IMG/VR virus record: IMGVR_UViG_3300025122_000048
Location: 1-40,112 of that record
Source: a virus
Strand: one strand, 5' to 3'
DNA: 40,112 nucleotides
The notes under the pieces were generated by a model. It saw only the letters and a list, made by a program, of their open reading frames with translations. It was not told where the DNA came from and made no database searches. Shown here piece after piece: positions 2-11,389 of this stretch; position 1 is the stretch's first letter; the number at the start of each line of letters is the position of its first letter. Position numbers and translations under genes: made by a program.

Positions 2-646
2 TTTTATCCGCTTCAAGAGTGGACCTATCCGCTGGGTTATTTTTGTGATAATCCTGAAAAGATTATTTCTGCAAAGTCTAAAATTAAGAAGATACCCGTT
101 GAAGAAAGGGATATTGATTTTCTATGGATAGGTAGCCTCCATGACAAGGCTGATCAAAGAATTAAAAGCGTCTGGCCTGACGATCTATCATTTGACTATT
201 GGACTCCGGGAATAAGGAGAAGATGCTTCGACGCGGTAAACAAAATAGCTGAGAAAAGAAGAGATTGGAATATTGTTTGCTCTGATAAGCGTTTAGAGAA
301 GGATGAGTATTTTGATCTCCTAAGTAGAACAAAAGTGTGCCTTGATTTTCCAGGAATCGGATATCACACAAGAAGATTTTTTGAAAATATGATTTTAGAA
401 AAGTTTTGTCTAGTCTATAAAAATGAAATGAAGCTACCTTATCCAATTTATGACGGACAGCACTTTGAATTTTTTGACACCGATTTAAGTAAGCTTGAAG
501 AGAAAATGGAGAAGACAATATCAAATAGTGAAAAAATTCACACAATAGAAGATAATTTGAGAAAAGATCAACGCTTATTCACATATGATTTTATAGTTGA
601 TAACATTAAATCAGTATTTTTATCTCATTTTGGTAGAGAGATTTAG
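2..646 (+). CDS. Putative glycosyltransferase, GT-B/exostosin-like (5' end outside window)
   Basis: The reading frame is open from the left edge, so the N-terminus is missing; 214 residues are visible, ending at TAG 644-646. The visible part looks like the C-terminal half of a GT-B fold transferase. A strand starting FLWIGSLHDK is followed by helical segments, then by LLSRTKVCLDFPGIGYHTRR and FFENMILEKFCLVY. That layout (sensing strand, 'cleft' loop with Gly, then an aromatic helix) is seen in phage and bacterial glycosyltransferases of the group 1/exostosin type. It opens a cassette of sugar-nucleotide and transferase genes: the next start codon is 10 bases downstream behind a good GGAG ribosome site at 645-650. 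The donor sugar and acceptor cannot be read. The family assignment is an inference from pattern, not from a clear catalytic signature, so another nucleotide-sugar-binding protein remains possible. Confidence 0.5.
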   Translation, partial: FYPLQEWTYPLGYFCDNPEKIISAKSKIKKIPVEERDIDFLWIGSLHDKADQRIKSVWPDDLSFDYWTPGIRRRCFDAVNKIAEKRRDWNIVCSDKRLEKDEYFDLLSRTKVCLDFPGIGYHTRRFFENMILEKFCLVYKNEMKLPYPIYDGQHFEFFDTDLSKLEEKMEKTISNSEKIHTIEDNLRKDQRLFTYDFIVDNIKSVFLSHFGREI

Positions 647-656
647 GAGTAGTTTT

Positions 657-1517
657 ATGACATCTAATAGTGCAAGCTATTCAATTGGAATAATTGGAAA
701 TGGATTTGTAGGATCTGCGATATTACATGGGTTTATATTACATGTAGAGGACATAATAATCTACGATAAAGATCCCAAAAGATCAACTCACTCTATGAAG
801 GAGTTAGTCTATAAGTCAGATGTAATATTTGTGTGTGTTCCCACACCAATGTTTGAGTCTGGAGAGTGTGATCTATCAATAGTTGAGAGTGTCATAGAAG
901 AGATGTCTCACCACGCCATCATTAATAAAAGGGTAATAGTGATAAAATCAACAGTTGTTCCAGGGACGGTGGAGTCACTTGCAAAGAAATATCCAAAAAT
1001 GAATTTTGTATTTAATCCTGAATTTTTGACAGAAAGAAAGGCGCGACTTGATTTTATTAACACGTCAAGAATAGTTCTTGGAAGCAATAAGACACTAGCT
1101 TGTGACATAGTTGAGAGTTTGTATAAATTAAGATTCCCGTATACACAGGTAATTAAAACAGATTTTGGAACGGCTCAGCTAATAAAATATATGGCAAATT
1201 GTTTCTTTGCAACCAAGGTTTCTTTCATGAATGAGATGTATCAGGTCTGTGAGGCAATAGGTGGAAATTGGGATAGTGCGCTTAAGGGATTTATAACCGA
1301 TGGACGAATTGGAAACTCACATATTGACGTACCAGGTCATGATGGCGATCTTGGCTTTGGAGGAAAATGCTTTCCAAAGGATCTTAACGCAATGATTAAG
1401 CGAGCAGAAGAATTAGGTGTAAATCCAAGTGTTATGAAAGGTGCGTGGGAAAAAAACCAAGAAGTAAGAACAGATCTAGACTGGTATGATATAGAGGGTG
1501 CTGTAAGCAAGGAATGA
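657..1517 (+). CDS. UDP-glucose/GDP-mannose dehydrogenase family protein, short form
   Basis: This protein resembles enzymes that oxidise UDP-glucose to UDP-glucuronate with two NAD+. The N-terminal Rossmann motif GIIGNGFVG (G14, G16, G19) binds NAD. Conserved catalytic elements follow in order: KSTVVPGT near 97-104, NPEFLTE with E122 near 120-126, K177 and N181 in LIKYMANCF, DGRIGNSH near 215-222, and the active-site loop GFGGKCFPKD with nucleophile C238, K241 and D242. At 286 residues it stops soon after this loop, whereas typical family members run about 390-450 and carry a third, UDP-binding Rossmann domain. The ATG at 657 was chosen because TTTAGGAGTAG lies just upstream; an earlier TTG at 597 would lie inside the preceding gene. 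Its stop overlaps the next start (ATGA). UDP-glucose is the most likely substrate, but a related nucleotide sugar is possible. Confidence 0.85.
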   Translation: MTSNSASYSIGIIGNGFVGSAILHGFILHVEDIIIYDKDPKRSTHSMKELVYKSDVIFVCVPTPMFESGECDLSIVESVIEEMSHHAIINKRVIVIKSTVVPGTVESLAKKYPKMNFVFNPEFLTERKARLDFINTSRIVLGSNKTLACDIVESLYKLRFPYTQVIKTDFGTAQLIKYMANCFFATKVSFMNEMYQVCEAIGGNWDSALKGFITDGRIGNSHIDVPGHDGDLGFGGKCFPKDLNAMIKRAEELGVNPSVMKGAWEKNQEVRTDLDWYDIEGAVSKE

Positions 1518-2401
1518 GTAATTGTCTAGTGACTGGCGGTCATGGATTTATAGGAAGTCACTTAGTGGACAGACTTTTAAATGATGGTCATCATGTGAGA
1601 GTAATAGATGATCACTCCGCCCCAGAGAATGAAAAATTTTATGTAAATGAGTCATCAGAAAATTACTATTTAGATATATCAAAAGTTGACTGTTTTGATG
1701 TATTTGAGAATGTAGATTTTGTTTTTCATCTTGCAGCCAGATCTAGAATACAGCCCACAATATCCTCTCCAAGCGAATGTTTCGAGGTCAACGTGGTAGG
1801 CACACAGAGGGTTCTAGAGTGGTCCAGGTTGAATGGCGTAAAGCGACTAATATATTCAGGTACGTCATCACTATATGGCCGTCAGAATCAAATTCCGTTT
1901 TCTCCTAATATGCCAGCAGACTGTTTAAACCCCTACTCAATGTCAAAGTGGATGGGCGAGCAGATATCTAAATTGTATAGTCAGCTGTATGATATTGACA
2001 CCATTGTATTGAGATACTTTAATGTGTACGGGTCAAGAGAGCCGACAAGAGGGGAATATGCTCCTGTAGTTGGATTATTCAAAAGACAGTCTAGCCGAGG
2101 TAATGCTATGACTATTGTTGGAGACGGTGAACAGAGAAGGGACTTTACACACATCGACGATGTCGTCGATGCAAATATTTGTGCAATGAATTCCAAGGGT
2201 ATAAAACACGGCATCTATAATGTAGGAACAGGAAAGAATTATTCAATTAATCAGATTTCAGAAATGATTGGTGGAAAAGTAAGATATACAAAAAAAAGAC
2301 TTGCAGAGGTAAGAGAAACTCTTGCTGACATAGAGATGACAAAAAATGACTTAGGCTGGTTTCCATCAAGAGAATTAGAGGATATGATACTTTCTTATTA
2401 A
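1514..2401 (+). CDS. NAD-dependent nucleotide-sugar epimerase/dehydratase (extended SDR)
   Basis: This 295-residue protein is a soluble extended short-chain dehydrogenase. The NAD-binding motif TGGHGFIG is at residues 7-14, the catalytic Tyr-Lys pair at Y141 and K145 (NPYSMSKW), and the Ser/Thr element SGTSSLYG at 115-122. The segment YGSREPTRGEYAPVV, then TIVGDGEQRRDFTHIDDVV, and the C-terminal EVRETLAD with LGW are typical of UDP-glucose/UDP-glucuronate 4-epimerase-like enzymes. It is translationally coupled to the dehydrogenase gene by a 4-base ATGA overlap. A likely joint pathway is UDP-Glc to UDP-GlcA to UDP-GalA, which is an inference. A decarboxylase (UDP-xylose synthase) or a simple GalE activity cannot be excluded from sequence alone. 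Confidence 0.85.
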   Translation: MSNCLVTGGHGFIGSHLVDRLLNDGHHVRVIDDHSAPENEKFYVNESSENYYLDISKVDCFDVFENVDFVFHLAARSRIQPTISSPSECFEVNVVGTQRVLEWSRLNGVKRLIYSGTSSLYGRQNQIPFSPNMPADCLNPYSMSKWMGEQISKLYSQLYDIDTIVLRYFNVYGSREPTRGEYAPVVGLFKRQSSRGNAMTIVGDGEQRRDFTHIDDVVDANICAMNSKGIKHGIYNVGTGKNYSINQISEMIGGKVRYTKKRLAEVRETLADIEMTKNDLGWFPSRELEDMILSY

Positions 2402-2413
2402 GTAAAGTATAAT

Positions 2414-3244
2414 ATGAATATGAATTTTCCAACAAATAAACAACACGTATCCTTTTCTGAAATTAAATGCTGGAAGGAGTGCTCCTATCGCCATAAGCTT
2501 GTACATATTGACAAGGTAGATCTATTTGAGCCATCACCCTATCTAGATTTTGGAACAGCTGTACATGAAGGCTGTGAAACATTGCTTAAAACAAAGACTG
2601 TTGATAAGAAAAAGCTTCTAAAAGATATAGTAGATGCATGGAATAAACATGGATTTGATAATCCTGAGTGGTATCAAAAACAGCCTAGCTGGTATAAGTA
2701 CGTGCCTGTTGAAGAGTGGTGTAAATGGGCTACCAATATGTGGGATGAAGTGCCCGAGTTTTTAGATGAAACATTTCCCGGGTGGGAGTGTTTTGAGGCT
2801 GAGGAGATGCTTTATGAAAGTATTGACAAAAAGGATATAAACTTTAAGGGATACATCGATGGAGTAATTAAGGTTCCCAAGAAAAGAGGAGATGGATATA
2901 ACTACTGGATCATAGACTGGAAGACATCTCAGTCATATGGATGGAGAAGACAGAAGAAACAGGATATTTTGATGACAGCGCAGTTAATTTTATACAAGTA
3001 TTTCTGGTCTAAAAAACATTCAATTCCGCTGAAGGATATTCGCTGCGGATTTGTTCTCTTAAAGCGAGGGGGAAAGCAAGGAAAGATTTGTGAGTTAGTA
3101 ACAATTTCTGTTGGCCCAACATCACTGAATAAGGGGCTCAAGATACTAAATAATATGGTTTCATCTGTAAGGCGAGGAATGTTTTTAAAAAATAGAGATT
3201 CTTGCAAGTATTGTCAGTTCAAGGATACAGAATTCTGTACTTGA
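2414..3244 (+). CDS. PD-(D/E)XK nuclease, Cas4/AddB-like with Fe-S cysteines
   Basis: This 276-residue protein carries the RecB/Cas4-type nuclease signature. FSEIKCWKECSYRHKL (C23) is at the N-terminus, GTAVHEG with H51 and E52 follows, then GYIDG with D149, the core WIIDWKTSQ with D168 and K170, and the helix QLILYKYFW. The C-terminal CKYCQFKDTEFC supplies C264, C267 and C275, which together with C23 form the four-cysteine 'iron staple' known from AddB and Cas4. The expected role is single-strand or end-directed DNA cleavage in recombination or replication; no cas1, cas2 or repeat array is present, so CRISPR adaptation is unlikely. ATG at 2414 follows AGTAAAGTATAAT without a clear ribosome site; ATG 2420 is an alternative. 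Its position among sugar genes is odd. Confidence 0.8.
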   Translation: MNMNFPTNKQHVSFSEIKCWKECSYRHKLVHIDKVDLFEPSPYLDFGTAVHEGCETLLKTKTVDKKKLLKDIVDAWNKHGFDNPEWYQKQPSWYKYVPVEEWCKWATNMWDEVPEFLDETFPGWECFEAEEMLYESIDKKDINFKGYIDGVIKVPKKRGDGYNYWIIDWKTSQSYGWRRQKKQDILMTAQLILYKYFWSKKHSIPLKDIRCGFVLLKRGGKQGKICELVTISVGPTSLNKGLKILNNMVSSVRRGMFLKNRDSCKYCQFKDTEFCT

Positions 3245-3274
3245 TTTACTTAAAATTTTTAAAATAGTAGTATC

Positions 3275-3288
3275 TTTAGTATACTAAA
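3275..3288. promoter_or_regulatory. 14-bp palindrome before the first complete glycosyltransferase gene
   Basis: TTTAGTATACTAAA is a perfect palindrome in the 63-base gap 3245-3307, flanked by a direct repeat TATCTT (3271-3276 and 3289-3294). It overlaps CTAAATA, which partly resembles a T4 late box. The start codon is 20 bases downstream. A repressor site or promoter is possible; chance is not excluded, since a few 14-bp palindromes are expected in 40 kb of AT-rich DNA. Confidence 0.3.
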
Positions 3289-3307
3289 TATCTTGGTGTA
3301 ATATCGT

Positions 3308-4552
3308 ATGAAAAAAAAGAAAGTTTTAATTTTATCTGATCACGCTCTTTCAACATCAGGTGTTGGAACACAGACTAGACACCTTGTTGAGGGGCTTCTG
3401 GAAAAAGGCGGGTATGAATTTAGACAGTTTGGAGCTGCTCTCAAGCACACAGACTACAGAACTATCGTAGTAAATGACAACTTTATAATAAAGCCCATAG
3501 ATGGATTTGGCGATAGAGATCTTATAAGGGTAACTCTTGCAACAGAGAAGCCTGATATTCTTTTTATATTTACTGATCCAAGATTTTTTATTTGGTTATT
3601 TGAAATGGAGGACGAGATCCATCAGGTGTGTCCAATAGTGTGGTGGCATGTCTGGGACAATAAGCCCTATCCTAAGTACAATGAGACCCTCTATCAGTCA
3701 ACAGACATAGTGAATTGTCACTCTTATCTGACATACGAGATGATTAATGAGCACTTTCCAGAAAAGACAAATTTTATTCCACATGCAGTACCTGAAAATG
3801 TATTTTTTCCTCTTTCAAAATCAGATATTGAAAAGTATAAGGTTCAAGTTTTAGGATTTGATAAAAGAGATCACTTTGTTGGGATATGGGTGAATAGAAA
3901 CGCTAAGCGTAAGAGGCCTAATGATGTACTTCACGCATGGAAGTTGTTTCTTGATAAGATAGAGGAAAAATATGGAAAAAGAAACGCAACTCTGATAATG
4001 CACACAGATCCTCTTGACCAGGAAGGACCCAATCTCGCGGTATCGTCAGAGATGCTTGGAATACATAAGAACATATTTTTCTCTCGAGATAGAGTAGAAT
4101 TTGATAAGATGAACATCTTATATAACATCTCAGACGTTTGTTTCAACATAAGCTATGCAGAAGGATTTGGACTTCCAACACTTGAATCAATGCAGGCAGG
4201 AAAGCCAATTATAGCACTTAAGACAGGTGGATTAACTAGGCAGGTCGTTGATCACAGAGATAATTCTGAGAACGGTATAGCGCTAGACATAGAATGTCAG
4301 ACACTTGTTGGATCTCAGCAGGTGCCCTATATTTACGAGGATTATGTCTCAGCACAAACAACTGCTGATGCATTTTTTAAATTATACGAAATGTCACAGG
4401 ATGAAAGAGATGCCCTAGGTGAAAAGGCTAGATCATATGCACTATCAGAATTTAAATTTCAGGATACAGTTGATAGATGGCATGGGGTACTTGAAGATCT
4501 CCATAGCGACTGGAAGAAAAATTATAAAAGATGGGAGATGTTTTCCTATTAA
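3308..4552 (+). CDS. Glycosyltransferase, GT-B fold (GT1/GT4-type)
   Basis: This 414-residue cytosolic transferase has the N-terminal glycine loop of GT-B enzymes (STSGVGTQTRHL, residues 15-26) and a basic phosphate-contact segment NRNAKRKRP near 197-204. The donor-site motif SYAEGFGLPTLE has the E-x7-E pair E285 and E293, followed by AGKPIIALKTGG. These features are established for retaining group 1/GT4 transferases, which use UDP-, GDP- or ADP-sugars. No membrane segment is evident. It starts at ATG after a 63-base gap, one of the few gaps in this cassette. It may use the UDP-sugar made by the two upstream enzymes; acceptor and linkage are unknown. Confidence 0.85.
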   Translation: MKKKKVLILSDHALSTSGVGTQTRHLVEGLLEKGGYEFRQFGAALKHTDYRTIVVNDNFIIKPIDGFGDRDLIRVTLATEKPDILFIFTDPRFFIWLFEMEDEIHQVCPIVWWHVWDNKPYPKYNETLYQSTDIVNCHSYLTYEMINEHFPEKTNFIPHAVPENVFFPLSKSDIEKYKVQVLGFDKRDHFVGIWVNRNAKRKRPNDVLHAWKLFLDKIEEKYGKRNATLIMHTDPLDQEGPNLAVSSEMLGIHKNIFFSRDRVEFDKMNILYNISDVCFNISYAEGFGLPTLESMQAGKPIIALKTGGLTRQVVDHRDNSENGIALDIECQTLVGSQQVPYIYEDYVSAQTTADAFFKLYEMSQDERDALGEKARSYALSEFKFQDTVDRWHGVLEDLHSDWKKNYKRWEMFSY

Positions 4553-4569
4553 TATGAAGAGGATTTAAA

Positions 4570-5739
4570 TTGAAAAATGTGATACTTAGAGCACCCCTGC
4601 TAAGCATAAGTGGGTATGGTGTTCACTCCAGACAGATTTTTAAGTGGATTTCTAAGAGATATGATGTCAGATTATTTTCTCAGGTGGTGCAGTGGGGGAA
4701 TACATCCTGGATGATAAGTCCAGAGTTAGAGGATGGCCTTGTAGGAAAAATTATGGCTTCTTCCAATAACTTAGATACAAAGGCTGATGTGTCAATACAA
4801 GTTCAGCTACCAGACGAGTGGGATCCAAATTTAGCTCAAAAGAATATTGGTATATCTGCTGTTATTGAAACAGACAGATGCAATCCTGAGTGGATCAGTG
4901 CAATGAATAAGATGGATGCTGTAGTTGTGCCGTCTAATCACGTTAAAAATATAATTTTAAATACAGGAAGAGTGACGTCAAAGCTATACGTTATTCCTGA
5001 GTGGTATTATGAAAATATTGATCTTCAGGAGAGTCATAATTTAGATATAGATTTTAATACATCATTTAACTTTTTAACTATTTCTCAATTTACAGGAAAT
5101 GATGCTTTTACAGATAGAAAAAATCTTTACTTCACGCTGAAGTGGTTTTGTGAAGTATTTTCTGAAGACCCTGATGTCGGATTGATTCTTAAGACGAATC
5201 ATGGAAAAGGGACTAAAATTGATAGGCAAATAACTAGAAATAAAATAAGGCAAGTGCTAGGCGAGGTTAGAAATGGCTCTTCGTATCCAAAAATTCACTT
5301 ACTTCATGGAAACATGACATCTGATGAGTTAATATCTTTATATCGAAATGAAAAAGTCAAATGCTTCTTAAGCCTCACAAGAGGAGAAGGTTTTGGCCTC
5401 CCACTGTTAGAGGCAGCAGCATGCAAGCTTCCTGTCATGGCAACAAACTGGTCAGCTCATTTGGACTTTTTAAATCTCGGAAGATTTATTCCAATTAATT
5501 ATCAATTAGCTGAAATTCCACCCCACAAGGCAGACGGAAGAATTTTTACTAATGGGATGAAGTGGGCGGAACCCTCTGAATCTGACTTTAAAGTAAAAAT
5601 TAAGAAGTTGCGTAATAAATACGATATGCCCAAGCAGTGGGCATCTGAGCTATCTGAGAAAGTTAAGCTGGAATTTAGTGCCGAGCCAATAATCTCAAAA
5701 TATGATGATATGTTTAATGAGGTCATAGGATTGAAATGA
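4570..5739 (+). CDS. Glycosyltransferase, GT-B fold (second copy type)
   Basis: This 389-residue transferase starts with RAPLLSISGYGVHSRQI, the N-terminal glycine loop. It has LILKTNHGKG near 206-214, and the donor-site motif TRGEGFGLPLLE with E273 and E281 (E-x7-E), followed by CKLPVMATNWSAH. It is related in architecture to the preceding transferase but clearly diverged, so it probably has a different donor or acceptor. The start is TTG at 4570, preceded by GAAGAGGA at a normal distance. ATG codons further in would remove the glycine loop. The stop overlaps the next gene by ATGA, coupling it to the small membrane protein. Family assignment is firm; substrate is unknown. Confidence 0.83.
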   Translation: MKNVILRAPLLSISGYGVHSRQIFKWISKRYDVRLFSQVVQWGNTSWMISPELEDGLVGKIMASSNNLDTKADVSIQVQLPDEWDPNLAQKNIGISAVIETDRCNPEWISAMNKMDAVVVPSNHVKNIILNTGRVTSKLYVIPEWYYENIDLQESHNLDIDFNTSFNFLTISQFTGNDAFTDRKNLYFTLKWFCEVFSEDPDVGLILKTNHGKGTKIDRQITRNKIRQVLGEVRNGSSYPKIHLLHGNMTSDELISLYRNEKVKCFLSLTRGEGFGLPLLEAAACKLPVMATNWSAHLDFLNLGRFIPINYQLAEIPPHKADGRIFTNGMKWAEPSESDFKVKIKKLRNKYDMPKQWASELSEKVKLEFSAEPIISKYDDMFNEVIGLK

Positions 5740-6047
5740 GCACAATATTGAGTGTGTTAACATTTGTTTGTGTAATTTTATCTGTGTGTCTGGGTCTGTC
5801 AGTTTACTTTAACATAAAACACGGAATATTAATATTGAAAATGCAAGATGCTTTAGAGAATTCTTTGGACATACTTAATGAGAGATATAGAAGTATTTCA
5901 AAAGTGGTGGAAACACCTCTTTTTTTTGACTCAGTCGAGGTAAGACAGGTGATCTCAGACATAGATAAGTGTCATGAGTCGGTCTTATATGTCGCCAATA
6001 TTCTCACTGGCTTTACTGAAGAGGGGGGAGAGGATGGCGATAGTTAA
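5736..6047 (+). CDS. Small single-pass membrane protein, unknown function
   Basis: This 103-residue protein has one N-terminal hydrophobic segment (about residues 4-27, rich in Leu, Val, Cys and Ile) followed by a helical, probably coiled-coil region and an acidic tail. The hydrophobic segment has no clear signal-peptidase site, so an anchored protein with its C-terminus in the cytoplasm or periplasm is more likely than a secreted one. It overlaps the transferase gene upstream by 4 bases and the sigma factor gene downstream by 14 bases, so all three are probably translated together. I do not recognise a family. A spanin- or holin-type function is conceivable for a short phage membrane protein, but nothing in the sequence decides this. 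Confidence 0.7.
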   Translation: MSTILSVLTFVCVILSVCLGLSVYFNIKHGILILKMQDALENSLDILNERYRSISKVVETPLFFDSVEVRQVISDIDKCHESVLYVANILTGFTEEGGEDGDS

Positions 6048-6768
6048 AAAAAAAATAAGAAGAAGAAGATCTGGTAGAAAACCTTACTTTGGAAAAGCTG
6101 TGCACGATGCGATCGTAAGGTATCAGGCTGCACAGACAATAAAAGAGAAACATGAAACATATGTTAAGGAGATTTTGCCTGCATTTAATAAGCTCGCAGA
6201 AAATTTAATATTCATTCATGGATTTGCCAAATCACCCGACAAATATGAGTCTATGAAAGCAGATTGTGTTTCATTTTTATATGAGACGCTTGGAAAATTT
6301 GACCCCAGCCGTGGCACGAAGGCATTTTCATATTTTAATGTTGTTGCTAAAAATTGGCTAATAATACAGAGCAAAAAGACTGCAAAAAATAAAAGGAGGC
6401 TGGTCAGCATAGATGACTCTGAGTCTTTAAGCCAATGTGACATTCGAACTATTGAGAATTTTAGCATAATGCCTCCGCAGGATTCAGAATTATTAAAGAA
6501 GGAGTCATTAGAAGACTTATTTAGATTAATGGGAGTGATTCGAGAGCGACTTAACAGTGAAAATGAAATAGCATGCATGGATGCAATAACGACACTTTTT
6601 AAAAGAATTGATGATCTAGATTTATTAAATAAAAGGGCTGTATTCGTGTATATGAGAGATTTATCAAATTTAAATCCCAAGCAGCTGTCTGTTGCAATGT
6701 CTTCAATTAGAAAGCACTATAGGGATATAGTTAAGAATAATGATTACGATATATTTTTTTGGGGGTAG
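6034..6768 (+). CDS. Late-transcription sigma factor, T4 gp55-like
   Basis: This 244-residue protein matches the gp55 type of phage sigma factor, which replaces the host sigma on RNA polymerase to read late promoters. The conserved sigma region 2-like segment includes NKLAENLIFIHGF near 52-64 and FDPSRGTKAFSYFNVVAKNW (89-108), a hallmark of this family. The N-terminus is very basic (KKKIRRRRSGRK). The C-terminus ends in DYDIFFWG, an acidic and aromatic tail of the kind T4 gp55 uses to contact the sliding clamp. T4 gp55 is 185 residues, so this form is longer. ATG 6034 was chosen because GGGGGGAGAGG lies directly upstream; an in-frame ATG at 5974 would extend into the previous gene. It sits directly before the virion genes it would be expected to activate. 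Confidence 0.85.
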   Translation: MAIVKKKIRRRRSGRKPYFGKAVHDAIVRYQAAQTIKEKHETYVKEILPAFNKLAENLIFIHGFAKSPDKYESMKADCVSFLYETLGKFDPSRGTKAFSYFNVVAKNWLIIQSKKTAKNKRRLVSIDDSESLSQCDIRTIENFSIMPPQDSELLKKESLEDLFRLMGVIRERLNSENEIACMDAITTLFKRIDDLDLLNKRAVFVYMRDLSNLNPKQLSVAMSSIRKHYRDIVKNNDYDIFFWG

Positions 6769-6770
6769 TT

Positions 6771-7136
6771 ATGTCAAAATCTGTTGAAGATGCCATAGAC
6801 AAGGTAAAGAAAACAAGCCAAAAAATAGATAGGTTTGCAGATCTTCTTGACTCTCTAGAGAGCACAGAGGACAAGAAAAAACTATTATGGAAAGAGGTAT
6901 ATGAGAATGCTCTAGTAGATAGGGAGAATGCTAGTATGTTATTCACAGATCTATTAATGCAGTCAAGAGGGAATGCGGGAAATCACGCAATGTTCGGACC
7001 AATAATGGCAAAATATCTTGAGAGAATGGCAAAGTCAAATGATCAGATACTAAAGCTAGCAGAGCTCATCTCAAAGGAAGAGCAGCGAGAGGTACTCAGT
7101 GCTGATGATATTTTTAGTAAGATAAATGAGGACTAA
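6771..7136 (+). CDS. Helical 121-aa protein, possible late-transcription coactivator (gp33-type)
   Basis: This is a short, charged, almost entirely helical protein without cysteine pairs or membrane segments. Recognisable stretches are FADLLDSLEST, FTDLLMQSRGNAG, MAKYLERMAKSN and DQILKLAELISKEEQ. It starts 2 bases after the sigma factor stop behind a GGGGGT ribosome site; a TTG at 6759 is in frame but would overlap the upstream gene. Its C-terminus, LSADDIFSKINED, carries an acidic-hydrophobic DIF element also present at the sigma factor's C-terminus. In T4, gp33 (112 residues) and gp55 both bind the sliding clamp through similar C-terminal motifs. Size, position and tail fit a gp33-like role, but I cannot confirm homology; a small terminase subunit is another possibility. 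Confidence 0.6.
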   Translation: MSKSVEDAIDKVKKTSQKIDRFADLLDSLESTEDKKKLLWKEVYENALVDRENASMLFTDLLMQSRGNAGNHAMFGPIMAKYLERMAKSNDQILKLAELISKEEQREVLSADDIFSKINED

Positions 7137-8800: not shown

Positions 8801-8971
8801 ATGACTCTAGCCCAACTCACAGAAGACATCTTCGATGCGTTTTTTGAAAGTGCCGGTGGTGAAGCTGCTGAACTTCCCGATGAAGCACGTGAAAAGATAC
8901 AGGCTCTTGCTACTGCTTTAGCAACTGCGATCGCGGCTCATGTTGAAGATGAAATAGACGAAGCCCTATAG
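8801..8971 (+). CDS. Small acidic helical protein, 56 aa
   Basis: The ATG at 8801 follows a strong AAAGGGAGAG ribosome site at 8786-8794, three bases after the preceding stop, and the frame runs to TAG 8969-8971. The product begins MTLAQLTEDIFDAFF, is rich in Ala and Glu/Asp, and contains an amphipathic helix around AREKIQALATAL and AIAAHVEDEIDEAL. There is no membrane segment. Its place between the hub-like gene and the gp25-like gene suggests a small virion or assembly factor, such as a spike tip adaptor or chaperone, but this is only context. Coding is supported by ribosome site, spacing and base composition similar to the upstream gene. Confidence 0.65.
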   Translation: MTLAQLTEDIFDAFFESAGGEAAELPDEAREKIQALATALATAIAAHVEDEIDEAL

Positions 8972-9040: not shown

Positions 9041-9532
9041 ATGGCAGAATATTCATTCAAGAGTTCGGGAATTGTATCTAGTGATCCTAGGCTAATAAGG
9101 GACGTCGCACAAAATCCCGTGGGTATAAAAACACCAATTAATCTTGGCACCGGAAGATCTGGAATATTTCAGATGAATTTTAATCCCGTTGATCAAATTT
9201 CTGATAATTTAAAAAATTTAATTCTCACGAATTGGGGTGAACGTCTTGGAAATTATTACTATGGTTCAAACATTAGATCTCTAACGACAGAGCTGACAGC
9301 ACAACAAGATTTTGACTCTGAAGCCATGAGAAGAATAGATGCAGCTGTTAAAAATTTCATGCCATTCGTTGAGCTAGATAGCTTTAATTCTTCTTTTGAT
9401 TCAGATGTGGTTGCAGGTAGCACGATTGGAGCAGACGGGCTATCAGTGGTATCTCTAACCGTAAAGTATAATATTCCACAACTACGAATAAGCGGAAAAT
9501 CAATAGAGGTAACTCTATATTGCATAGGATAG
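9041..9532 (+). CDS. 25: Baseplate wedge protein, gp25-like
   Basis: This 163-residue protein shows the GPW/gp25 pattern. There is an N-terminal beta segment with NPVGIKTPIN and FQMNFNPVDQI, the conserved helix-turn DNLKNLILTNWGERLGNYYY, then SNIRSLTTEL and a helical stretch ending in AAVKNFMPFVEL. C-terminal strands follow (VSLTVKYNIPQ, IEVTLYCIG). In T4 the gp25 protein joins the wedge to the sheath and nucleates sheath assembly; the NWGER element corresponds to the family's most conserved core (usually T-x-x-GER). Length is slightly above the usual 110-150. The ATG follows AGGAG inside a small hairpin. It is followed by the gp6-like gene after 3 bases, the usual 25-6 pairing of contractile tails. 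Confidence 0.85.
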   Translation: MAEYSFKSSGIVSSDPRLIRDVAQNPVGIKTPINLGTGRSGIFQMNFNPVDQISDNLKNLILTNWGERLGNYYYGSNIRSLTTELTAQQDFDSEAMRRIDAAVKNFMPFVELDSFNSSFDSDVVAGSTIGADGLSVVSLTVKYNIPQLRISGKSIEVTLYCIG

Positions 9533-9535
9533 AAA

Positions 9536-11389
9536 ATGTCTTCAAGTAAAAAAAATCAAGTTAAGAGCATGAGAGCTAATCAAAGATCGTATCTCAATAA
9601 GGATTTTTCAGCATTTAGAGCTGAATTAACACAATACGGCCAGACATACTTCTCTGATAAGATAACAGACTTTTCAGAAAATGGTTTAGCTGGTATGTTT
9701 ATAGAGATGTCAGCATACGTCGGAGATGTGATGTCTTATTATTTAGATCATCAGTTCAGTGAACTTAACATTCTCACTGCCGTTGAAAGTGATAATATTG
9801 AGAAGCTAGTGAGAAGTGCCGGTGTTAAGATACAGGGTGCCTCTCCAGCGTCAGCAAAGGTTGATTTTTATTTAGAGATACCGGCAATAGTTAGAGAAAA
9901 TGAGTATGTTCCAGATTTTATAAAGATGCCAACAATAGTGGCAGGGACACTATTAACTTCAACAACCGCAATAAAGTTTGAATTAATGGAGGACTTAGTC
10001 TTTTCAGCTGTTGATTCCCAGGGAAAGTTTCTTGCCTCATATAAGACTATGAAGGTTAATGCAGAGGGAAACCCATCAACTTTTTCAGTTAAACTAACTG
10101 GAGTATGCATATCTGGAATAACATCATCAGAGAGCTTTAATATTCCGGATTCATTTGTACCGTTTAGATCAATTACTTTGAGTAACTCAAATGTGTCTGA
10201 TATTATATCTGTAACTGACACTGATGGAAATGCGTATTATGAGGTTAGCGCACTCACACAAGATACGGTGTTTAAGCGTGTTATAAATTCTCTATCAGAC
10301 AGTAATTTAGTTTCTGAGAATCTTGAAATGATTCCCGCACCTAGAAGGTTTGTAATATCAACAAGTAGGTCATCTGGATTAACTTCATTACGATTTGGCG
10401 GCGGAGATGCACTATCAACTGATGATGACATCATGCCAGATCCAAGTGAGATAGCTATTCCGCTATACGGAAAGGCGTCGACTATATCAAGATTCACTTT
10501 AGATCCAAATAAACTTTTGAAGACAAGAACTCTAGGGATAGCTCCGAGAAATACCACGCTGAGTATTAGATACCGATCAGGGGGAGGATTATCTCACAAC
10601 TCCGGTGCCAAATCCATAACTTCAGTTTCTAATCTTATTACAAAATTTTCATCTGGAACGCCATCATCATCAATATCTGCTGTGAGAACATCATTAGAGG
10701 TTAGCAATCCCAAAGAGGCTTCCGGCGGGGAAGCCGCTATGACTCTAAGTGAACTCAAGTCTACGGCCCTATCATATAGGAATTCGCAGTCAAGAATAGT
10801 TACAAAAGAGGATCTTATAGCTAGAATATATTCCATGCCATCTAATTTTGGAAGAGTTTTTAGGGTGGGTGTTAGAGATAATCCAAATAATCCGCTAGCG
10901 TCAGTTGTGGCAATCATAAGTAGAAATAGAGGTGGAAGCCTTATAGTGTCACCAGATTCATTAAAGGAAAATCTAAAGACATACATAAATCAGTATAGAC
11001 TAATATCAGACGCTCTAGATATTGTAGACGCAAAAGTTTTGAACATAAGGGTAGAGTACGGAGTTGTCATTAATTCCGAATCAAATAATAATTTAACAAT
11101 TCAAAATATCAATAAATCTATTCAAGAATATCTCTTGATTGATAATTTTCAAATAGATCAGCCAATTGTAACATCAGATCTAATTAATATCATTATAAAT
11201 TCTAGGGGTGTTGTCTCAATAGTAGATTTTAAAATTTCTAATCTTACGGGAACGATAAAGGATAGGCCATATAGCAATGAAAATTTCTCTGTCGCCTCTA
11301 GTACTGACAGGGGTCTTATAATTCCGCCGCAGGGATCTATTTTTGAATTAAAGTATCCGAATGATGACATCATAGGGGTTGCGAGGTAA
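9536..11389 (+). CDS. 6: Baseplate wedge protein, gp6/baseplate J-like
   Basis: This 617-residue protein has the gp6 start pattern: YLNKDFSAFRAELTQYGQTY, then DFSENGLAGMFIEMSAYVGD with YYLDHQFSELNILTAVESDN, as in baseplate J proteins of contractile tails. The central part is beta-rich. The C-terminal third has the conserved ALSYRNSQSRIVTKEDLIAR, VRDNPNNP and NINKSIQEYLLIDNFQI segments, in which strands alternate with a helix. In T4 gp6 forms the iris-like ring of the inner baseplate and binds gp7, gp25 and gp53. It follows the gp25-like gene by 3 bases and precedes the next gene by 2. Length is close to T4 gp6 (660). No truncation is seen. Confidence 0.85.
   Translation: MSSSKKNQVKSMRANQRSYLNKDFSAFRAELTQYGQTYFSDKITDFSENGLAGMFIEMSAYVGDVMSYYLDHQFSELNILTAVESDNIEKLVRSAGVKIQGASPASAKVDFYLEIPAIVRENEYVPDFIKMPTIVAGTLLTSTTAIKFELMEDLVFSAVDSQGKFLASYKTMKVNAEGNPSTFSVKLTGVCISGITSSESFNIPDSFVPFRSITLSNSNVSDIISVTDTDGNAYYEVSALTQDTVFKRVINSLSDSNLVSENLEMIPAPRRFVISTSRSSGLTSLRFGGGDALSTDDDIMPDPSEIAIPLYGKASTISRFTLDPNKLLKTRTLGIAPRNTTLSIRYRSGGGLSHNSGAKSITSVSNLITKFSSGTPSSSISAVRTSLEVSNPKEASGGEAAMTLSELKSTALSYRNSQSRIVTKEDLIARIYSMPSNFGRVFRVGVRDNPNNPLASVVAIISRNRGGSLIVSPDSLKENLKTYINQYRLISDALDIVDAKVLNIRVEYGVVINSESNNNLTIQNINKSIQEYLLIDNFQIDQPIVTSDLINIIINSRGVVSIVDFKISNLTGTIKDRPYSNENFSVASSTDRGLIIPPQGSIFELKYPNDDIIGVAR

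Follow-up and report, generated by a model that had tools for sequence, protein, structure and literature searches.

A Probable gp16-Type Small Terminase Gene Immediately Downstream of the Gene for a gp55-Like Late Sigma Factor in Environmental T4-Like Phages

Introduction

What is the function of a conserved 121-residue protein whose gene directly follows that of a phage late sigma factor? This question is raised by a virus record of 40,112 bases (hereafter the window, that is, the whole stretch of DNA that was analyzed), in which both neighboring proteins end in an acidic segment containing D-I-F. A preliminary description read them as counterparts of gp55 and gp33 of phage T4 and as a sign of clamp-coupled late transcription. 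The presence of similar acidic tails on two neighbors is not enough to identify such a pair, and in the present analysis the 121-residue protein appears instead to be, probably, a divergent small terminase (TerS) of the gp16 type, whose gene immediately follows that of a gp55-like late sigma factor.

Gene Layout and Conservation of the Pair

The adjacency of the two genes and both D-I-F tails were confirmed in the sequence (Table 1). The sigma gene begins at the ATG at 6034 and its product ends in NNDYDIFFWG; the ATG of the second gene lies at 6771, two bases past the sigma stop, and its product ends in SADDIFSKINED. The start at 6732 given in the preliminary description falls inside the sigma gene. 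Farther downstream are a baseplate-wedge family protein (9041-9532) and another baseplate-type gene (9536-11389), and most of the space ahead of the gp25-like gene is taken up by an open frame of about 56 codons (8801-8971), which was read by eye and is shorter than the ORF cut-off. Directly upstream of sigma, positions 5736-6047 encode a 103-residue protein with an N-terminal hydrophobic stretch, whose family recurs at the loci of relatives and has no clear known family. The region 597-5739 carries a row of genes resembling sugar-nucleotide dehydrogenases/epimerases and glycosyltransferases (sugar labels assigned by eye), among which sits a phrog_69-type exonuclease gene.

Table 1. Features of the sigma-neighbor locus in the window.
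Feature	Position	Strand	Basis
gp55-like late sigma factor, 244 aa	6034-6768	+	phrog_234, E 6e-4; AlphaFold2 pLDDT 88.9; VIA-align to T4 gp55 (7d7c_F), Z 11.4, 124/137 residues
Sigma region 2-like domain, residues 17-146	6082-6471	+	Range aligned to T4 gp55 residues 10-153
Extra C-terminal helical domain of sigma, residues 149-237	6478-6744	+	No equivalent within the structured portion of T4 gp55
Sigma C-terminal tail DYDIFFWG	6742-6765	+	Sequence; strict motif in 72/130 unique relatives vs. 17/671 control ORFs
121-aa helical protein, probable small terminase (gp16-like)	6771-7136	+	Fold, register, profile ranks
C-terminal SADDIFSKINED of the 121-aa protein, probable TerS C-terminal segment	7098-7133	+	DDIFxxI-type motif in 133/136 unique relatives

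Scanning IMG/VR with the sigma factor identified 474 relatives, and in the best 80 of these as well as in the window (81 of 81) a relative of the 121-residue protein is encoded just downstream of sigma. A scan with the 121-residue family gave 80 loci, partly on the same contigs, bringing the total to 162 copies, of which 152 have a sigma gene within 400 nt upstream. Four of the remaining ten have at least 600 nt of upstream sequence, and sigma was found in three of these, either overlapping the start or 570 nt away. In a third and more divergent set of 83 loci, sigma lies within 1.5 kb in 65, while 13 loci with more than 900 nt upstream contain no recognized sigma. The same pair, annotated as hypothetical proteins, is present in Flavobacterium phage immuto (gp118-gp117) and Microcystis phage Mel-JY01, and the immuto partner is related to the 121-residue family by profile (P 4.4e-5). 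Three loci of the divergent set (L541, L542, and L543) lie on contigs that had been assigned to MAGs of Methylococcaceae TMED69 and Halobacteriovorax; these contigs may be phage, in which case the bins would hint at hosts.

The Late Sigma Factor and Its Additional Domain

The first half of the proposed gp55/gp33 pair is supported by both profile and predicted fold. With a cut-off of E 0.1, 42 of 63 relatives match the late sigma profile phrog_234 (best E 5.9e-7), and in the AlphaFold2 model, which was built on 63 relatives, T4 gp55 is the second VIA-align match, covering model residues 17-146. Nearly all of the top 50 Foldseek matches of this model are sigma factors, none of them at E 0.001. 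The protein resembles T4 gp55 in the profile and fold of region 2 and in its short hydrophobic-acidic C-terminal tail (SLDFLYEAND in T4), whereas T4 gp55 lacks about 85 helical residues that are found here beyond the aligned part, with predicted helices at 149-172, 176-190, 200-211, and 215-233. The two-domain sigma-E structure 1or7_A spans both domains (169 of 181 residues, model 20-235) with a large overall rmsd of 10.4, and this alignment suggests that the extra residues are the counterpart of sigma region 4, which would possibly be a new feature for a protein of this kind. In T4, according to the available text of PMC2988020, the role of such a two-domain factor is divided between gp55 and gp33; should the extra domain prove to be region 4, the phage could do without a separate gp33.

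An excess of the T4 late promoter TATAAATA in the window was also considered and rejected, as three matches were observed against 3.64 expected, which is another difference from T4. A second, sigma-70-like frame of 244 aa (labeled by eye) was noted in one relative, G001, at 108452-109186.

Profile Evidence on the 121-Residue Protein

Searches of Pfam, PHROGs, and PDB sequences with single proteins and with alignment members of the 121-residue family returned no significant match, only chance-level ones, and in 15 records of relatives that carry the gene, the TerS profile phrog_445 found no match up to E 1. An HMM of 124 gp16-type sequences placed family members at ranks 1-4 outside gp16 itself among 4017 ORFs (E 0.0027-0.023), and in the divergent set, with 1985 new ORFs, family members made up 19 of its top 20. 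The same HMM ranked the 121-residue gene first in the window (108 ORFs, E 0.057), in G001 (903 ORFs, E 0.39), and in G005 (337 ORFs, E 0.68); the best family matches overall are weak (E 0.0013-0.7). An HMM of gp33 run on the same 1985 ORFs also drew ten family members into its top 20 (best E 0.14), implying that part of the HMM ranking reflects composition.

In a profile-profile comparison, gp16 scored 25.3 (P 0.0028) and ranked third of 57 family profiles, below only the family itself and its kin from the Flavobacterium phage, the next score being 18.8. With a profile of 193 members, gp16 reached 26.8 and was first among outsiders (next 18.9), and gp33 obtained 11.4 at rank 29 of 59; a separate profile comparison with gp33 gave P 0.38. 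Across comparisons gp16 remained the best outside profile, with weak scores (P 0.0018-0.003). The profile search against gp33 that the preliminary description had called for thus gave no relation, and small terminase, which it had named as an example of a family that would speak against its reading, came out as the nearest outside family.

Predicted Fold and Sequence Register

The AlphaFold2 model of the 121-residue protein, for which 45 of 70 unique members were used, has a pLDDT of 86.5 and contains three long helices (2-28, 32-65, and 69-105) and a short C-terminal one (111-119), with helices 32-65 and 69-105 forming a long antiparallel hairpin core. This plan agrees with the TerS architecture described in the available part of PMC9611059, namely a helical hairpin core and a C-terminal arm, the latter binding TerL in lambda and P22. 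Sharing a hairpin fold with TerS does not by itself show function. Foldseek gave no match at E 0.001, and the absence of both gp16 and gp33 among the Foldseek matches listed excludes neither; likewise, gp33 is absent among the VIA-align matches listed, from which its exclusion does not follow. VIA-align found gp16 of phage 44RR (3txs_B) at rank 33 with Z 8.8 and rmsd 3.0, covering 90 of 90 residues over model 5-106, and TerS of phage T6 (9oox_A) at rank 39 with Z 8.6, covering 92 of 94 residues over model 1-106. Unrelated helical hairpins outscore them, with Z up to 10.1, and Z below 13 may mean little for helical proteins.

An agreement between sequence and structure bears on this comparison. 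NDQILKL at position 90 of the 121-residue protein pairs with NREILKL at 97 in T4, which corresponds to an offset of 7 to T4/T6 and of 8 to 44RR (represented by L379, presumably 44RR, whose numbering is T4 + 1). The structural alignments end at 106=113 (T6) and 106=114 (44RR), in agreement with the register derived independently from sequence. The weight of the structural argument therefore rests on the end-to-end coverage of both listed TerS chains together with the agreement in register, as Z alone proves little. In comparison with gp16 of the T4 family (T4, T6, and 44RR; phrog_735 and phrog_445), the protein is likewise all-helical with a long antiparallel hairpin, is matched across the full TerS chains in the same register, has gp16 as its best outside profile, and carries an acidic-hydrophobic segment near the C-terminus. 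It differs in length (121 aa against 164 aa in T4 gp16) and in its sequence score, which is not significant.

C-Terminal Tails

Each kind of tail occurs more often than expected by chance, and their conservation is unequal. The sigma motif, defined as aromatic-acidic-hydrophobic-hydrophobic within the last ten residues, is missing in 58 of the 130 unique relatives and in most of the divergent locus set. The DDIFxxI-type motif of the neighbor is near-invariant (14 of 671 control ORFs have it): among the three members without it, one stops early at DMNDI and two have DTIF, and in the extended family a slightly wider pattern is found in 185 of 193. Conservation of the D-I-F tails among relatives, as expected from the preliminary description, holds for the neighbor and only in part for sigma. 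The similarity of the tails is also limited to D-I-F itself, because the sigma motif occupies the chain end or a place close to it, and in the neighbor xxI and a further 2 to 15 residues come after DDIF.

On a tree of 121 sigmas, constructed with the last 15 residues left out, the presence of the sigma tail requires about 17 changes, at least 13 of which are forced by well-supported branches. Since the sigma tail is so variable and the motif of the neighbor is not, the two lack the joint occurrence that one would expect of a shared clamp epitope. The short sigma tail may rather be an accessory docking motif, polymorphic in contrast to that of T4 gp55 and present in about half of the relatives. 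The C-terminal segment of the neighbor resembles that of gp16 (SPTELMDEI in T4 and SPDELL in 44RR, compared with SPDDIF in some relatives); this look is suggestive only, because as many as 304 of 1501 control ORFs contain a relaxed gp16-like pattern.

Genome Context

TerL is present in 10 of 15 relatives' records, and in the six for which the distance was derived (G001, G002, G004, G005, G008, and G010) it lies 31-46 kb from sigma. The 121-residue gene is thus not adjacent to TerL as gp16 is in T4, where the arrangement is customary and not required. As gene order is not a property of the protein, this distance lowers the probability of gp16 membership without excluding it, and a TerS gene beside a late sigma factor and 31-46 kb from TerL would possibly be a new arrangement. 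In the six TerL neighborhoods that were read out of the ten, no gp16-like ORF was recognized beside TerL; they contain a gp46-like gene (by eye), a protein of 126 to 138 aa and, in most, a small Cys-containing ORF. The 126- to 138-aa protein is not gp16-like; the 127-aa TerL neighbor was considered as a TerS candidate and rejected (P 0.51 against gp16).

In none of the 15 records was a clamp recognized, whether of the T4 or the bacterial beta type, nor a B-family polymerase, gp33, or a phrog_445 TerS; most records are fragments, and single absences therefore say little. Three relatives (G001 at 88871-92434, G002, and G004) encode a DnaE-type (C-family) polymerase of about 1187 aa, in which no convincing clamp-type motif was found, and a clamp loader may be among the AAA matches. 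Clamp coupling of the T4 style, the broader claim of the preliminary description, is not supported, given that no clamp was recognized in these mostly fragmentary records and that many relatives keeping the motif of the neighbor have no sigma tail. In a very improbable scenario, a late sigma and a TerS would dock through their D-I-F motifs on the same partner, perhaps the beta clamp of the host, as relatives have a DnaE-type polymerase and no recognized clamp of their own; this would tie late transcription and packaging to replication in a phage that has lost gp33, gp43, and gp45.

Alternative Explanations

The second half of the proposed pair, a gp33-like coactivator that binds the beta flap of RNA polymerase and, with gp55, tethers the polymerase to the sliding clamp via acidic tails, has several points in its favor: 121 aa is near the size of gp33 (112 aa), the gene adjoins a gp55-like sigma in most relatives, an acidic-hydrophobic C-terminal motif is present, and the gp33 HMM attracts family members. 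Beyond length and motif the likeness to T4 gp33 (phrog_254) ends. There is no relation by profile, the long-helix hairpin contrasts with the five short-looped helices of gp33 (as given in the available text of PMC7892883), and the DDIFxxI motif is followed by further residues, whereas T4 gp33 stops exactly at LDFLL. The unequal inheritance of the two tails, the lack of a recognized T4 clamp in the relatives' records, and the additional C-terminal domain of sigma also speak against it. Identity with gp33 was rejected on profile and helix plan, and we regard it as very improbable.

A different explanation is that the protein is a new kind of sigma-associated factor, such as a co-sigma, an anti-sigma, or an assembly helper, whose hairpin merely resembles TerS. 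The tight and widely kept pairing, which extends to the divergent set and to a Flavobacterium and a Microcystis phage, would fit such a role, and generic hairpins score as high as gp16 in structural alignment. Against this, gp16 is the best profile outside the kin in each profile-profile comparison and ranks first by HMM, with a structural register that agrees; moreover, baseplate-type genes follow, and the two genes may be paired for no other reason than membership in a late operon. Such a factor therefore seems unlikely, if clearly less so than gp33. The identification of the 121-residue protein as a small terminase is probable rather than proven, because no single score is decisive.

Implications

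If the two genes encode a late sigma and a TerS, both would be made from one late transcription unit. The sigma factor would bring the RNA polymerase of the host to late promoters and would not need gp33, since its own C-terminal domain probably takes the place of region 4. The two long antiparallel helices of TerS would form the oligomerization hairpin of a ring, and TerL or another partner would be engaged and regulated by the conserved DDIFxxI segment, carried on a flexible arm at the C-terminus. As far as the available text of PMC3012670 and PMC9026906 goes, T4 gp55 contacts TerL, and the packaging of concatemers is about 100-fold poorer in extracts that lack gp55; the pairing of sigma with TerS may accordingly reflect a working link between late transcription and packaging. 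No statement of a pair of TerS and late sigma was found in the available parts of the literature searched, including PMC9611059, PMC9958956, PMC4360716, PMC3012670, PMC9026906, PMC2988020, and PMC7892883.

If true, this reading would name two T4 core functions, the late sigma factor and the small terminase, in poorly known environmental T4-like phages. The Far-T4 phages, an uncultivated clade, are also environmental T4-like phages, for which the available text of PMC4360716 reports TerL, portal, and capsid genes, with T4 core genes of transcription regulation undetected. Should the window belong with this clade, the two functions would be named in a group in which such transcription genes were reported as undetected. 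A lineage in which the genes for a late sigma and a TerS adjoin would lend itself well to a test of the coupling of gp55 to packaging.
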